34,041 nt of DNA, taken from Candidatus Fermentibacteraceae bacterium (GTDB lineage Bacteria; Fermentibacterota; Fermentibacteria; Fermentibacterales; JCC-6). Under the pieces are notes generated by a model that saw only the letters and a program-made list of their open reading frames with translations, ran no database searches and was not told the origin of the DNA. Of this stretch, positions 9,095 through 13,443 are shown piece after piece. The stretch spans positions 1 to 34,041 of the forward strand of contig JAMOUX010000022.1 of assembly GCA_027067855.1 (NCBI GenBank). Direction: 5' to 3'. Each line of letters begins with the position of its first letter. The stretch's first letter is position 1. The position numbers and the translations under genes are program-made.

Positions 9095-11290
9095 ATGAAA
9101 TTCTCTTCCAGGATCGTATTCGGCATCGCAGTGGTGGCGTTACTGGTGTTTTCGTTCTTTTTCAGAACGTGGTTCGCATCGCACGTACTCCCTCCGCCCA
9201 AGAGAATGCAGGCGGAAACTACGCAGGCCTACAGGTACGCCCTGGCATTTTCGGAGAACGGAACGATACCGTCGGTGGATTCCTTGGTGATGTACCCGGA
9301 CGGGTGGCCCACCGTACAGAATTCCATATTCGAGGAGTACCTGGCCGGGGGAATGCACAGGGTGCTGGGCGGAGATTTCAATACATTCATGAGAAGATTC
9401 TGCCTGGCATTTCCCCTGCTGGCCGCTTTTTTCCTTTATCTCTGGATGTCCGCCGCAGGCTATCGACCCGGGGATGCCGCCGTGGCTTCCGTACTCTATT
9501 CGGTGATGCTGCCGGCCATGCTGAGAGCGAGAGGGGGTTCTCTCTACAGGGAAACCGTTGCGTTCCCGCTTCTCATGGCCCTGGGATGGCTCGTGGAAGG
9601 CTTACTGGGAAAGGAACGTTCCGTGCGACGGGCCGCTGCGGCCGGGATCGTGCTGTTCATGGCCCTGGCGGCCTGGAAGGTTTCGGCATACCTGGTGTTC
9701 TTCCTGTTCGTCTACCTGCTATGGAGAAATTGGAGGCGGAACGACGTTCCGGCGTTCATCAGGTGGTGGTTGGCAGGGGCTCAATTAACTGCCTCGTTGT
9801 TGATTCCGCACATGAGACACGACGGTGCCGTTCTGAGCCCGGCTTCCGTAGCGGCTGCGGCCTTACTGCTCCCGCCCTTTAAGACATTGTGGTTCCCGCT
9901 GCTCTCAACCATCCTGGCCCTCGCCTCGGCTTTCCTGGGTAAAGAAGCGGGGGGGCATGTTTCGGCGGTAATACTGGCCAAGATTCGTTTCGCCTTCCGG
10001 CATCCCGAAGATCCGGGTATGCTCAATGAAGACGCGAGGCTTTTCTGGGTGCCCGGATACACCTCTCCCGGGCTTTCCCAGGTTTTACTTCTTTTCGGAA
10101 TTCCCGTATTGGCGGCGCTTCCAGGGCTCCCGGATTTCATCAAAACGAGGCGGCACACACTCATCTTCTGGTTCTTTCCCGTCGCACTGGCAGGTTATCT
10201 TTTCTTCGACAGGCTCATGATATTCCTGGCCGCCGCACTTGTTCCGGTCATAGCTCACACTTTTCGCAGAAAGTGGACAATACCTGTAATTGCTGCGGCT
10301 TTGCTTCTTCAGTCATCCTTCCCGTCAAAGTCAGCGGAATTCGTGGACTCCCTGGGATTTCATTTCGAGAATTCCTCCTCGCTCCTGGATGACCGGGAAC
10401 TGGATTCATTCCTCTCCTGGCTGAAGTCGGAAACGGAAGAAGATGAGGCCGTCCTGGCGTTCTGGCATCTATCCGGACTGATATCGGCTTATGCGGAGCG
10501 GCCGGTGGTGACTCACACCTTCTTCGAGAATTCCACCAACAGGAAAAATATCGTGCGCTTCGCCCGTGTAATGTTCATGCCCGAGGACAGCCTGGTATCT
10601 TTCATGAGGGAAAAGGATTGTGGATTAGTAGTCTACCAGGCGGATTTTCTTCTCGACGACAGCCCGACCGGATTGTCGTATCTGGCTGGTCTCACCCGGG
10701 TTCCGGAGAACGCAGCGGCGCTTTCCATGCATTTCCACCCGGAGAGACTCGACTCGCTGGACCTTGTATTTCAGGGACAATCCATCAGGGTGTTCACCCT
10801 GGATTGTCCGGTTCCTCCGAAGTTGCCCGCAGGATTCCTTTTCCGGGAAAGATACCGCCATTGCTACACGGATTACGACGGAGCGCGGGCAATGCTTTCC
10901 GACCCCAAGGGATGGTCCGGACGCCTGGCTGACATGGGTATTGAATCGAATGATCCGGACATGCTTTCGGGAGCCTTGCTCCTGGGCCTGCAGGGAGGGG
11001 GTCCGGCCGATGTTCTGAAATTCATGCTCGACGACCTGATACGTTTGTATATTCAAGGATGCTATTCCCTGGAGAATTTGGCCGAAGACATCCGGAATTA
11101 TACTTGGTACCAGGGTCCGGATACGGATCTTCTTCTCTTGCTTGCCAGGTTGCAGATTGCTGAAGGTGAAACGCAAAACGCCGTGAACGTATATGAGGAA
11201 ATTCTCGAGATCGACCCCGGAAACGCGAATGCGGCATTTGAGCTTAAGGTCATGAATTCATCCGCGGAGGAAAGGTTGACGAGGGAATGA
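9095..11290 (+). CDS. GT-C membrane protein resembling oligosaccharyltransferase STT3/AglB, with C-terminal TPR-like tail
   Basis: This is a 731-residue protein with about 10-12 hydrophobic helices in the first ~400 residues. The first outer loop has AYRYALAFSENGTIPSVDSL then MYPDGW, recalling the D-x-Y/W ... YPPG loop of STT3/AglB. A following helix has RGGSLYRETVAFPL, also STT3-like. The soluble part begins near 420, and AFWHLSGLISAYAERPVVT (about 455-473) sits where STT3 has WWDYG plus a nucleotide-independent acceptor site. The exact WWDYG motif is absent. The end (about 670-720) holds a TPR-like unit (AEGETQNAVNVYEEILEIDPGNA). It could be a divergent protein glycosyltransferase or another GT-C lipid-linked sugar transferase. 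The stop overlaps dapF (ATGA). The family call is by architecture and partial motifs only. Confidence 0.6.
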   Translation: MKFSSRIVFGIAVVALLVFSFFFRTWFASHVLPPPKRMQAETTQAYRYALAFSENGTIPSVDSLVMYPDGWPTVQNSIFEEYLAGGMHRVLGGDFNTFMRRFCLAFPLLAAFFLYLWMSAAGYRPGDAAVASVLYSVMLPAMLRARGGSLYRETVAFPLLMALGWLVEGLLGKERSVRRAAAAGIVLFMALAAWKVSAYLVFFLFVYLLWRNWRRNDVPAFIRWWLAGAQLTASLLIPHMRHDGAVLSPASVAAAALLLPPFKTLWFPLLSTILALASAFLGKEAGGHVSAVILAKIRFAFRHPEDPGMLNEDARLFWVPGYTSPGLSQVLLLFGIPVLAALPGLPDFIKTRRHTLIFWFFPVALAGYLFFDRLMIFLAAALVPVIAHTFRRKWTIPVIAAALLLQSSFPSKSAEFVDSLGFHFENSSSLLDDRELDSFLSWLKSETEEDEAVLAFWHLSGLISAYAERPVVTHTFFENSTNRKNIVRFARVMFMPEDSLVSFMREKDCGLVVYQADFLLDDSPTGLSYLAGLTRVPENAAALSMHFHPERLDSLDLVFQGQSIRVFTLDCPVPPKLPAGFLFRERYRHCYTDYDGARAMLSDPKGWSGRLADMGIESNDPDMLSGALLLGLQGGGPADVLKFMLDDLIRLYIQGCYSLENLAEDIRNYTWYQGPDTDLLLLLARLQIAEGETQNAVNVYEEILEIDPGNANAAFELKVMNSSAEERLTRE

Positions 11291-12096
11291 AACTCGATTT
11301 CCTCAAAATGAGTGGTGCCGGCAACGATTTCATATTGCTGGATAATCTGGACGGGGATCCTTTCGAGGTGCTCTCCATCGATATGGTAGCCACCTTGTGT
11401 GCCAGGGGTACATGGATAGGAGCGGACGGCCTCCTTGACATCAGGAGTGACGTCAGTCACGCCTTCAGGATGAAGTACTACAACAGCGATGGAAAACCCG
11501 CCGAGATGTGCGGAAACGGAGCGAGGTGCGCGGTCGTTTACGCCGTAATGGCCGGACTCGCCGACCGGGACGAGGACTTCCATTTCGAGAGCGATGCCGG
11601 GGTACACAGGGCCAGAGTCACCGGGCCGGAAGAGTCCAGGGTATGGATGACACCGCCGGAGGTCCGTTTCATGGCTGAAACGATGAGCGTGGGAAAGATT
11701 GAAACCGCCGTTTCCTTCCTGGACACCGGTGTTCCCCATGCCGTACTGGTAACCGGTGGTCCCGAGGATCCTCCTTTCGAGGAAACCGCCCGATTCCTCA
11801 GGTGGAATCGGCGCTTCGGTGTCGCCGGAACCAATGTAAACTACCTTTGGAAACAAGATGGAAAGTTTTTTATGAGGACATGGGAGAGAGGTGTCGAGGG
11901 AGAAACCCTGGCCTGCGGCACCGGCGCAGTGGCCTGTGCCGTATGCGCCGTAAAGCTCTTGGGCGAAAATTTTCCGGTGGAAATCACCACCAAGAGCGGA
12001 CGTACTCTCACCGTGGGAGCGGATGAGCATGGAACCTGGCTCCAGGGAGAGGCCAGACCCGTGTACCGAGGAACCCTTCATCGCTTACCCACGTGA
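11287..12096 (+). CDS. dapF: Diaminopimelate epimerase
   Basis: DapF interconverts LL- and meso-diaminopimelate without cofactor, feeding lysine and peptidoglycan synthesis. The 269-residue protein has the N-terminal signature MKLDFLKMSGAGNDFILLDN. The two catalytic cysteines are C75 (MCGNGARC) and C210 (ACGTGAVAC). The size is normal for the family. The ATG overlaps the stop of the preceding GT-C gene by 4 bases. It is followed by 52 bases and then tRNA-Gly. A meso-DAP supplier fits with ddl later in the window, pointing to a DAP-type peptidoglycan. Confidence 0.96.
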   Translation: MKLDFLKMSGAGNDFILLDNLDGDPFEVLSIDMVATLCARGTWIGADGLLDIRSDVSHAFRMKYYNSDGKPAEMCGNGARCAVVYAVMAGLADRDEDFHFESDAGVHRARVTGPEESRVWMTPPEVRFMAETMSVGKIETAVSFLDTGVPHAVLVTGGPEDPPFEETARFLRWNRRFGVAGTNVNYLWKQDGKFFMRTWERGVEGETLACGTGAVACAVCAVKLLGENFPVEITTKSGRTLTVGADEHGTWLQGEARPVYRGTLHRLPT

Positions 12097-12098
12097 AC

Positions 12099-12127
12099 TT
12101 GACGGAGGCCCGATGAAAGCCTATTCA
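12099..12127 (+). promoter_or_regulatory. Possible sigma70-type promoter for tRNA-Gly
   Basis: TTGACG at 12099-12104 is a near-consensus -35 box and lies exactly 17 bases before TATTCA (12122-12127), a weak -10 box. Initiation would fall near 12134, about 15 bases before the mature tRNA 5' end. The -35 box overlaps the GGAGG at 12104-12108 described for the downstream frame. The -10 match is poor, so this is tentative. Confidence 0.3.
12104..12115 (+). promoter_or_regulatory. Shine-Dalgarno and ATG upstream of the tRNA, in frame with the exported-protein gene
   Basis: GGAGG at 12104-12108 sits 4 bases before an ATG at 12113. From that ATG the frame stays open through the whole tRNA-Gly gene and into the exported protein that ends at 12805. 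The only clear ribosome binding site for that protein is therefore on the far side of the tRNA. It may be used on unprocessed read-through transcripts from dapF, or it may be a relic of an arrangement before the tRNA arrived. Confidence 0.4.
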
Positions 12128-12148
12128 TACCGCTACCCTCGTACCGGA

Positions 12149-12224
12149 GCGGGTATAACTCAGTTGGTAGAGTGTCAGCTTCCCAAGCTGAAGGTCGCGG
12201 GTTCGAGTCCCGTTACCCGCTCCA
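12149..12224 (+). tRNA. tRNA-Gly (anticodon CCC)
   Basis: The gene folds as a full cloverleaf: acceptor GCGGGTA (12149-12155) pairs with TACCCGC (12214-12220), the D-arm contains CTCAGTTGGTAGAG, and the anticodon stem TCAGC/GCTGA closes the loop TTCCCAA, giving anticodon CCC (reads GGG). The T-arm holds GGTTCGAGTCC. T is the discriminator at 12221 and CCA is encoded at 12222-12224. The mature 3' end is followed within 15 bases by the start of the next gene and no terminator is seen, so it is probably cut out of a longer transcript by RNases P and Z/E. Confidence 0.97.
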
Positions 12225-12238
12225 TTTTCCTTTTTGTG

Positions 12239-12805
12239 ATGATGCTTTTCATAATGTCCGCAGGAGCCAGGGCGTCGGAGTCGTACGATACCTGGGCGGC
12301 CGCTTCCGGCTCCGGTCGCTCCCTTCCGTCCGAATCGGCGGTACTGAGCGGAGATGTACTGGTAAAGAGTATAGAAAACGGAAACAGGATCGCTCTCGTA
12401 TCACTGGTTCGGCTGCTCGTATCCCAGGGAAGAATGCGGGAAGCTGTCGCGTGGTTTCAGGGCAGGGGTCTGGACATGCCGGTGACAAGGAGGGACCTGG
12501 GCATAGCTCTTTCCTGGTACGGAAGGTTCCGGCTTTACGAGGTGCTGGGAGAAGAAATCGACGTGCCCCCGGACCTGGAGGACGATGATTACGGCAAAAC
12601 CCTCGCCGCCATAGTGTCCATGGGGTGGATGGCGTGCACCGAAGACGGTCTCTTTCGACCGGACCTGCTGGTGGGCCCCGGCGAGTTGCAATTGCTCTCG
12701 GGGATATTTTTCCCCCGGTCCTGTGAATGGCATCGGGACTGGATAGGTATGAAGTCCCTGGACAGCCTTTTCGCAGAAGGCATACGTGCCGGTGTGACGA
12801 GGTGA
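12239..12805 (+). CDS. Exported protein with single SLH-like motif, function unknown
   Basis: From the ATG pair at 12239/12242 this is a 188-residue protein. The N-terminus is hydrophobic and ends in ARA-SES, a plausible signal-peptidase site, so it is probably exported. From the tRNA-proximal ATG the hydrophobic core is short and has no Shine-Dalgarno; including the preceding codons (IFLFV) makes a better signal peptide, and those codons are in frame with a start at 12113 on the other side of the tRNA. The middle is helical, TPR-like in rhythm. Residues in the GWMACTEDGLFRPDLLVGPG region resemble one S-layer-homology unit. The start is uncertain and the function unknown. Its stop is 2 bases before the next gene's ATG. 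Confidence 0.6.
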   Translation: MMLFIMSAGARASESYDTWAAASGSGRSLPSESAVLSGDVLVKSIENGNRIALVSLVRLLVSQGRMREAVAWFQGRGLDMPVTRRDLGIALSWYGRFRLYEVLGEEIDVPPDLEDDDYGKTLAAIVSMGWMACTEDGLFRPDLLVGPGELQLLSGIFFPRSCEWHRDWIGMKSLDSLFAEGIRAGVTR

Positions 12806-12807
12806 AA

Positions 12808-13443
12808 ATGGAACGTCCGGTGGACAGGGTACAGTTGGGTGATTTCCGGCGGAATCTCCTGGAGCGGATGCAGAACATAAATTTCAGGATTGCTCCGGGT
12901 CCGGCGGCGCTTACGTTAACCAGGTTCCTGGCCGGCATATTTTTACTGCTTCTGGTTCCCGGAAACGAAAAATCGGTCCTGATCTTCTGGGTGGTCATGT
13001 GGGGAGCGCTTTCCGATTACCTTGACGGCTGGGCGGCCCGAAGACTCGGCAAGAACAACTATCCCGGCAAGGTGATGGATTTCGTAGCGGACAAGCTCTT
13101 CATTTCCGTGGCCCTGGTCACCATTTCCTATAACCTGGGAACGTTGAACAATATCATGGCGCTGGTACTGGTTGGATATCACCTGTTGCTTCTGGCCGGA
13201 CTTTCCCTGATATCCTGGAGTATTGATTTTCCCGTGGTCACGATAACCACAGGGGAGAAATTGGCGGTTCTTTTCAGCTATATCCTTCTCGTAGTTTCCA
13301 GCGGCAAGGCCGCTTTTCCCGGTAAGCGGATCTTCATATCGCTTTACACGCCCGTTCTCATATTCGCCGCGTTGTCGGCGCTGACGGGTCTTATAAGCTA
13401 TTTCAGACTTTTGAGAAGAATTTTGAACAGGATATTGGAGTAG
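12808..13443 (+). CDS. CDP-alcohol phosphatidyltransferase (phosphatidylglycerophosphate synthase type)
   Basis: This is an integral membrane enzyme that joins a CDP-diacylglycerol phosphatidyl group to an alcohol. The 211-residue protein carries the complete family signature D-x2-DG-x2-AR-x8-G-x3-D-x3-D: D70, D73, G74, A77, R78, G87, D91 and D95. The rest is made of hydrophobic helices. Length and the LTLTRF start resemble PgsA, so the alcohol is most likely glycerol-3-phosphate, but inositol-phosphate or serine enzymes share the motif. The ATG at 12808 has GAGG a few bases upstream and follows the previous stop directly. A longer frame opening at 12727 would overlap the neighbour and was rejected. 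Confidence 0.88.
   Translation: MERPVDRVQLGDFRRNLLERMQNINFRIAPGPAALTLTRFLAGIFLLLLVPGNEKSVLIFWVVMWGALSDYLDGWAARRLGKNNYPGKVMDFVADKLFISVALVTISYNLGTLNNIMALVLVGYHLLLLAGLSLISWSIDFPVVTITTGEKLAVLFSYILLVVSSGKAAFPGKRIFISLYTPVLIFAALSALTGLISYFRLLRRILNRILE

Follow-up and report, generated by a model that had tools for sequence, protein, structure and literature searches.

Bacterial tRNA genes can share a transcript with protein genes, as in the mixed Escherichia coli operon thrU-tyrU-glyT-thrT-tufB and in tyrT-tpr, and adjacent protein genes can be translationally coupled through an overlapping stop and start codon (ATGA). Overlapping genes have also been described in bacteria, with examples in antisense arrangement (PMC5960689, PMC9927249), and spurious open reading frames over tRNA genes are a recognized annotation artefact, collected in AntiFam families (PMC3534567). 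Mixed tRNA–mRNA operons and overlapping genes are already known; for a conserved bacterial protein gene whose reading frame includes a tRNA gene, a literature search of partial coverage returned no earlier description. Here, we describe a locus from the little-known phylum Fermentibacterota in which the gene of an exported protein probably encloses, on the same strand and in its reading frame, a functional tRNA-Gly(CCC) gene; translation of the protein would start upstream of the tRNA and proceed through it.

The locus resembles each of these systems in part. As in the tufB-type operons, the tRNA shares a transcript with a downstream protein gene and must be cut out of it. In those operons, however, the protein gene starts past the tRNA with its own ribosome site, whereas in 22 species studied here the frame of the protein gene contains the tRNA; seven of them have no start codon past the tRNA, and most of the others have no Shine–Dalgarno sequence there. 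Thirteen of the 22 species have a start that overlaps the stop codon of the upstream gene dapF (ATGA in 11 species of genus g1, TTGA in two of g8), as in coupled gene pairs, but here the second gene traverses a tRNA gene. AntiFam-type frames likewise read through tRNA sequence; they are annotation errors, whereas this frame leads into a conserved protein, detected in 37 of the 42 genomes of the order with dN/dS below 0.4, and does so without a canonical post-tRNA start in seven species. Antisense overlapping genes also draw two products from one stretch of DNA, but in the present case both lie on the same strand and one is a structured tRNA.

The window, that is, the whole 34,041-nt stretch that we analysed, is contig 22 of a 1.86-Mb genome. 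From 456 to 34041 it is mostly one plus-strand run of tightly packed open reading frames, so that tRNA-Gly(CCC) may be internal to a transcription unit of great length. The features of the locus are crowded (Table 1): the probable −35 element and the Shine–Dalgarno sequence have one base in common, and the PgsA-like gene begins 2 bases past the stop codon of the exported-protein gene.

Table 1. Features of the dapF–tRNA-Gly(CCC)–exported-protein locus in the window.
Feature	Position	Strand	Basis
dapF (diaminopimelate epimerase), upstream gene	11287..12096	+	Pfam PF01678 (E = 1.6e-39), ORF; stop TGA 12094-12096
TTGACG, probable −35 of tRNA promoter	12099..12104	+	Sequence, conservation, TTGACN before other tRNAs of the genome
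GGAGG, Shine–Dalgarno of upstream start	12104..12108	+	Anti-SD duplex −9.5 kcal/mol
ATG, proposed start of the tRNA-containing gene, within promoter spacer	12113..12115	+	In-frame upstream start in 22/22 species
TATTCA, probable −10 of tRNA promoter, 17 bases after TTGACG	12122..12127	+	Same spacing in two families
tRNA-Gly(CCC), CCA encoded	12149..12224	+	ARAGORN and Rfam, 73.3 bits
Proposed complete CDS of exported protein, 230 aa, whole tRNA gene inside	12113..12805	+	Open frame, species comparison
Signal peptide hydrophobic core, first base = last base of CCA	12224..12256	+	Translation, hydropathy
CDP-alcohol phosphatidyltransferase (PgsA-like), next gene	12808..13443	+	Pfam PF01066 (E = 7.4e-15); SD −7.2 kcal/mol at ATG 12808

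The initial annotation had read a GGAGG followed four bases later by an ATG as the opening of a frame through the tRNA, had noted that no Shine–Dalgarno sequence lies on the near side of the tRNA, and had placed the beginning of the signal core ahead of the first ATG there, directly against the CCA end. All three readings hold. The ATG follows GGAGG and the spacer CCCG, and from it 230 codons, those of the tRNA included, can be read without a stop as far as the end of the frame at 12805; an upstream start in this frame is present in every one of the 22 species. The in-frame start codons after the tRNA (GTG 12236, ATG 12239 and ATG 12242) come without a Shine–Dalgarno sequence (+1.9 kcal/mol), and the first codon of the core, IFLFVMMLF, uses the last A of CCA. 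Several of the 33 tRNAs in the same genome also have a long downstream open frame by chance, and among the 33 checked we found no other convincing in-frame nested tRNA gene. Given these chance frames and the known annotation artefact, an open frame over a single tRNA is unremarkable, and the case must rest on comparison across species.

The tRNA has an intact cloverleaf, a CCC anticodon and an encoded CCA, all of which are kept across species (ARAGORN, Rfam and alignment), and it is the single CCC copy found in the genome. Mean column identity in an alignment of 28 species is 96%, the flanks diverge freely, and a compensatory change from T6–A67 to C6–G67 separates genera. By its cloverleaf and its conservation, the gene is probably functional; it is intact in all 22 nested species. 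Translated in the protein frame, the tRNA reads AGITQLVECQLPKLKVAGSSPVTRS. We considered whether extra pairing of the leader GGA with the 3′ UCC might be a feature peculiar to this tRNA that slows RNase P, and rejected the idea, as three such pairs are available at 9 of the 33 tRNAs of this genome. Pairing of the three leader bases with bases 73–75 of the 3′ end, possible in 9 of 33 tRNAs (loci L101–L130), is commoner than the level of about 5% expected by chance.

Downstream of the tRNA, the frame encodes roughly 190 amino acids of an exported protein. Searches assigned it to no Pfam family at a threshold of 0.001 and to no NCBIfam family; it has a hydrophobic N-terminal core, its matches to TPR were all sub-threshold, domain searches gave no support for an S-layer-homology or other known domain, and its AlphaFold model is poor (pLDDT 49). 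As judged from substitution patterns, the protein is under purifying selection, with dN/dS values of 0.10–0.36 outside the signal region in ten close pairs. The signal region itself is more variable, yet hydrophobic in every species.

The genes for DapF, tRNA-Gly(CCC) and the exported protein follow one another in this arrangement in each of the three families that make up the taxonomic order, which makes the position of the tRNA old. The tRNA adjoins the exported-protein gene in nearly all members that have this gene, and at the related loci first examined it was present in 28 of 29, being absent at L028. The suggestion that it had been inserted recently into an older signal-peptide gene is not supported by this distribution, nor by genus g5, within which the tRNA was lost while the gene kept its own ATG.

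The protein frame is unbroken through the tRNA in 22 species from genera g1, g3, g7, g8 and g9, which represent two families. This count leaves out L069 (G013), which lies on a chimeric contig, and the 22 species are not independent, since 17 of them belong to one genus. In most of them, the signal core starts at or beside the codon to which the final A of CCA belongs. The distance from CCA to a conserved tryptophan takes nine different values over the 22 species, and all nine are 2 mod 3; where a genus has its own ATG, the distance is 1 mod 3 (g4 and g5) or 0 mod 3 (g6). A need to keep the reading frame as far as the end of the tRNA would produce such a single phase across nine lengths, and this conservation exceeds chance.

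The most conventional alternative is that translation begins at one of the three in-frame start codons after the tRNA in the window, the overlap being a chance open frame. The window species does have these codons, and frames open by chance through tRNAs occur and include the AntiFam artefact (PMC3534567). However, close relatives with homologous signal regions do not have the codons, which moreover come without a Shine–Dalgarno sequence; a start there would deprive the signal core of its first residues and of the preceding arginine, and would not account for one phase held over 22 species. We regard this explanation as very improbable. The initial annotation had pointed to relatives that start past the tRNA with their own ribosome site as evidence that would count against the overlap; relatives with their own start there do exist, but only in g4, g5 and g6 and in another frame, and seven of the 22 same-frame species have no start there at all.

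These seven species (L011, L013, L015, L016, L017, L018 and L020), from at least four lineages, contain no ATG, GTG or TTG anywhere from CCA to where the signal core ends; in them, a start at a normal codon must lie upstream of the tRNA or within it. In L016 and L017, 11–12 extra in-frame codons separate the tRNA from the core, again without a start codon. A further alternative is a non-canonical or leaderless start after the tRNA, at AUU, AUA or AUC on the CCA junction or, in some species, at ATG or GTG, with the open frame incidental. Near-cognate ATT, ATA or ATC codons do stand at the junction in most of the 22 species, with ATG in L004 and L022, and g4, g5 and g6 use their own post-tRNA ATG. 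Cutting after CCA would, however, take away the A of the junction codon, which is AGT in L012–L015 and AGG in L027 and L029. The species whose signal region offers no ATG, GTG or TTG, and the later in-frame core of L016 and L017, also speak against this explanation, and the single phase of the nine lengths would be left unexplained. Where a start codon does occur past the tRNA, it mostly comes without a Shine–Dalgarno sequence; L009, L019, L027 and L029 reach modest energies of roughly −2 to −4 kcal/mol. We therefore consider a start of this kind unlikely.

Upstream of the tRNA, by comparison, all 22 species have an in-frame start, located at −27, −30, −36, −54 or −60. In eight of the nine species in which it does not overlap the dapF stop codon (L001, L012–L015 and L018–L020), it is preceded by a strong Shine–Dalgarno sequence of −9.5 to −11.3 kcal/mol; the ninth, L022, is a weak case, in which a GTG begins three bases past the end of the dapF stop codon and the Shine–Dalgarno sequence is weak. 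The Shine–Dalgarno sequence is also weak in several of the species that rely on overlap with the dapF stop codon. Because each upstream start was chosen from within the open frame, the choice itself guarantees that no stop codon follows; what carries information is the availability of a start in all 22 species, each with support from a Shine–Dalgarno sequence or from the dapF stop codon (weakly so in L022). In L013–L015 and L018, the GGAGG and a TTG are retained although the adjacent TTGACG has been lost, a pattern suggesting that the start as such is under selection.

A start within the tRNA would satisfy the seven species as well. An in-frame TTG in the D-loop (codon 6) could serve as the start, with GGAG at the 5′ end of the tRNA as ribosome site, and the rest of the tRNA would still be translated. 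This codon is TTG in 20 of the 22 species and ATG in L020, and the region before it pairs with the anti-Shine–Dalgarno sequence at about −6.5 kcal/mol. But some 14 bases separate the GGAG from the TTG, more than a normal ribosome site allows, and in L022 the codon is CTG. Moreover, TTGG belongs to the ordinary D-loop sequence and needs no other reason to be there, and the conserved upstream starts would remain without explanation. We think it improbable that translation begins here, and favour a start upstream of the tRNA. The frame, the start-codon pattern and the conservation on which this preference rests all come from comparison of species.

A probable tRNA promoter, TTGACG-N17-TATTCA or a close variant of it, precedes the tRNA at a constant distance in 13 of the 22, representing two families; TTGACG itself is found at −44 in the window and in 12 further species and is not intact in the other nine. 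TTGACN elements occur at similar places before other tRNAs of this genome. A generic sigma-70 promoter scan did not report the proposed tRNA promoter, as its −10 element departs from the consensus. At most of the g5 loci L023, L025, L026, L063, L065 and L070, the dapF stop codon is 5 bases before the tRNA and TTGACG is not seen, so that expression of this tRNA may rely on transcription continuing from dapF.

We infer from this layout how the promoters might be used and how translation could compete with tRNA processing. Translation from ATG 12113 would depend on its own Shine–Dalgarno sequence or, in other species, on re-initiation at the overlapping dapF stop codon, and the tRNA sequence would supply about 25 N-terminal residues, including the arginine that directly precedes the core. 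The 17-base spacer of the likely tRNA promoter would contain the start codon. Transcription from that promoter would begin near 12134, past the start codon, and give an RNA from which only the tRNA could be made, whereas RNA read in from dapF would carry the start codon and be translated. On such RNA, ribosomes coupled to dapF translation would follow close behind the polymerase and hold off folding and cutting of the tRNA, and each molecule would yield either tRNA or protein, not both. That a start codon in the promoter spacer lets promoter choice decide between tRNA and translation, and that loss or movement of the tRNA would destroy the protein start, strikes us as a proposal with about even chances of being right. 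The initial annotation had anticipated that cutting would leave an mRNA without a ribosome site, and that tRNA maturation and protein synthesis may exclude each other. Indeed, the tRNA is followed by no ribosome site, and where a species has no later start codon, RNA cut at the end of the tRNA could not give the protein; in those species, maturation and synthesis would then be mutually exclusive on any single molecule.

Genera g4, g5 and g6 present the other arrangement, with their own ATG after the tRNA in a phase unlike that of the 22 nested species. In g6 (L021), this start has its own ribosome site; in g4 and g5 it comes with a short leader. Within g5, the tRNA has decayed or been lost three times: it is a pseudogene in G028 (L062) and is gone in G022 (L064) and G030 (L068), where dapF is followed directly by the exported-protein gene. 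It was never lost among the 22 nested species. Loss only where an independent ATG exists fits an overlap in which loss of the tRNA destroys the protein start, although the species are not independent.

Two further loci depart from these patterns. L069 (G013:C253, 1–600) is without an upstream start. Compared with L006, its DapF is 48% identical (about 80% among close sisters) and its downstream protein 84%, and its tRNA has a C6–A67 mismatch. We rejected L069 as a genuine exception, as this identity split and the mismatch point to a chimera joined within the tRNA; the contig appears to be a metagenome chimera, with DapF from a different relative and the downstream protein from the genus. At L067 (G035:C6, about 2072–2165), the dapF frame seems to continue through the tRNA and to end just past it. 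The gene that follows is disrupted, and either real decay or sequence errors would account for this locus.

Trees of the exported protein and of DapF keep g1 together and do not resolve the deep branches. The nested form, found in two families, is for that reason possibly ancestral; it may have been followed by two later gains of an own start (in g4/g5 and in g6). Alternatively, the nested form may have had several origins.

For annotation, the locus suggests that the rule by which AntiFam-type filters call a coding sequence over a tRNA spurious, so that such genes are shortened or dropped, can be wrong, and the chimera at L069 is a caution about shared tRNA sequences in assemblies. For the biology of these bacteria, it poses the question of whether ribosomes can translate through a tRNA transcript before the tRNA folds and is cut, and whether the choice between tRNA and protein is regulated. 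With genera that nest the tRNA beside genera with a separate start, the order itself provides a natural experiment.
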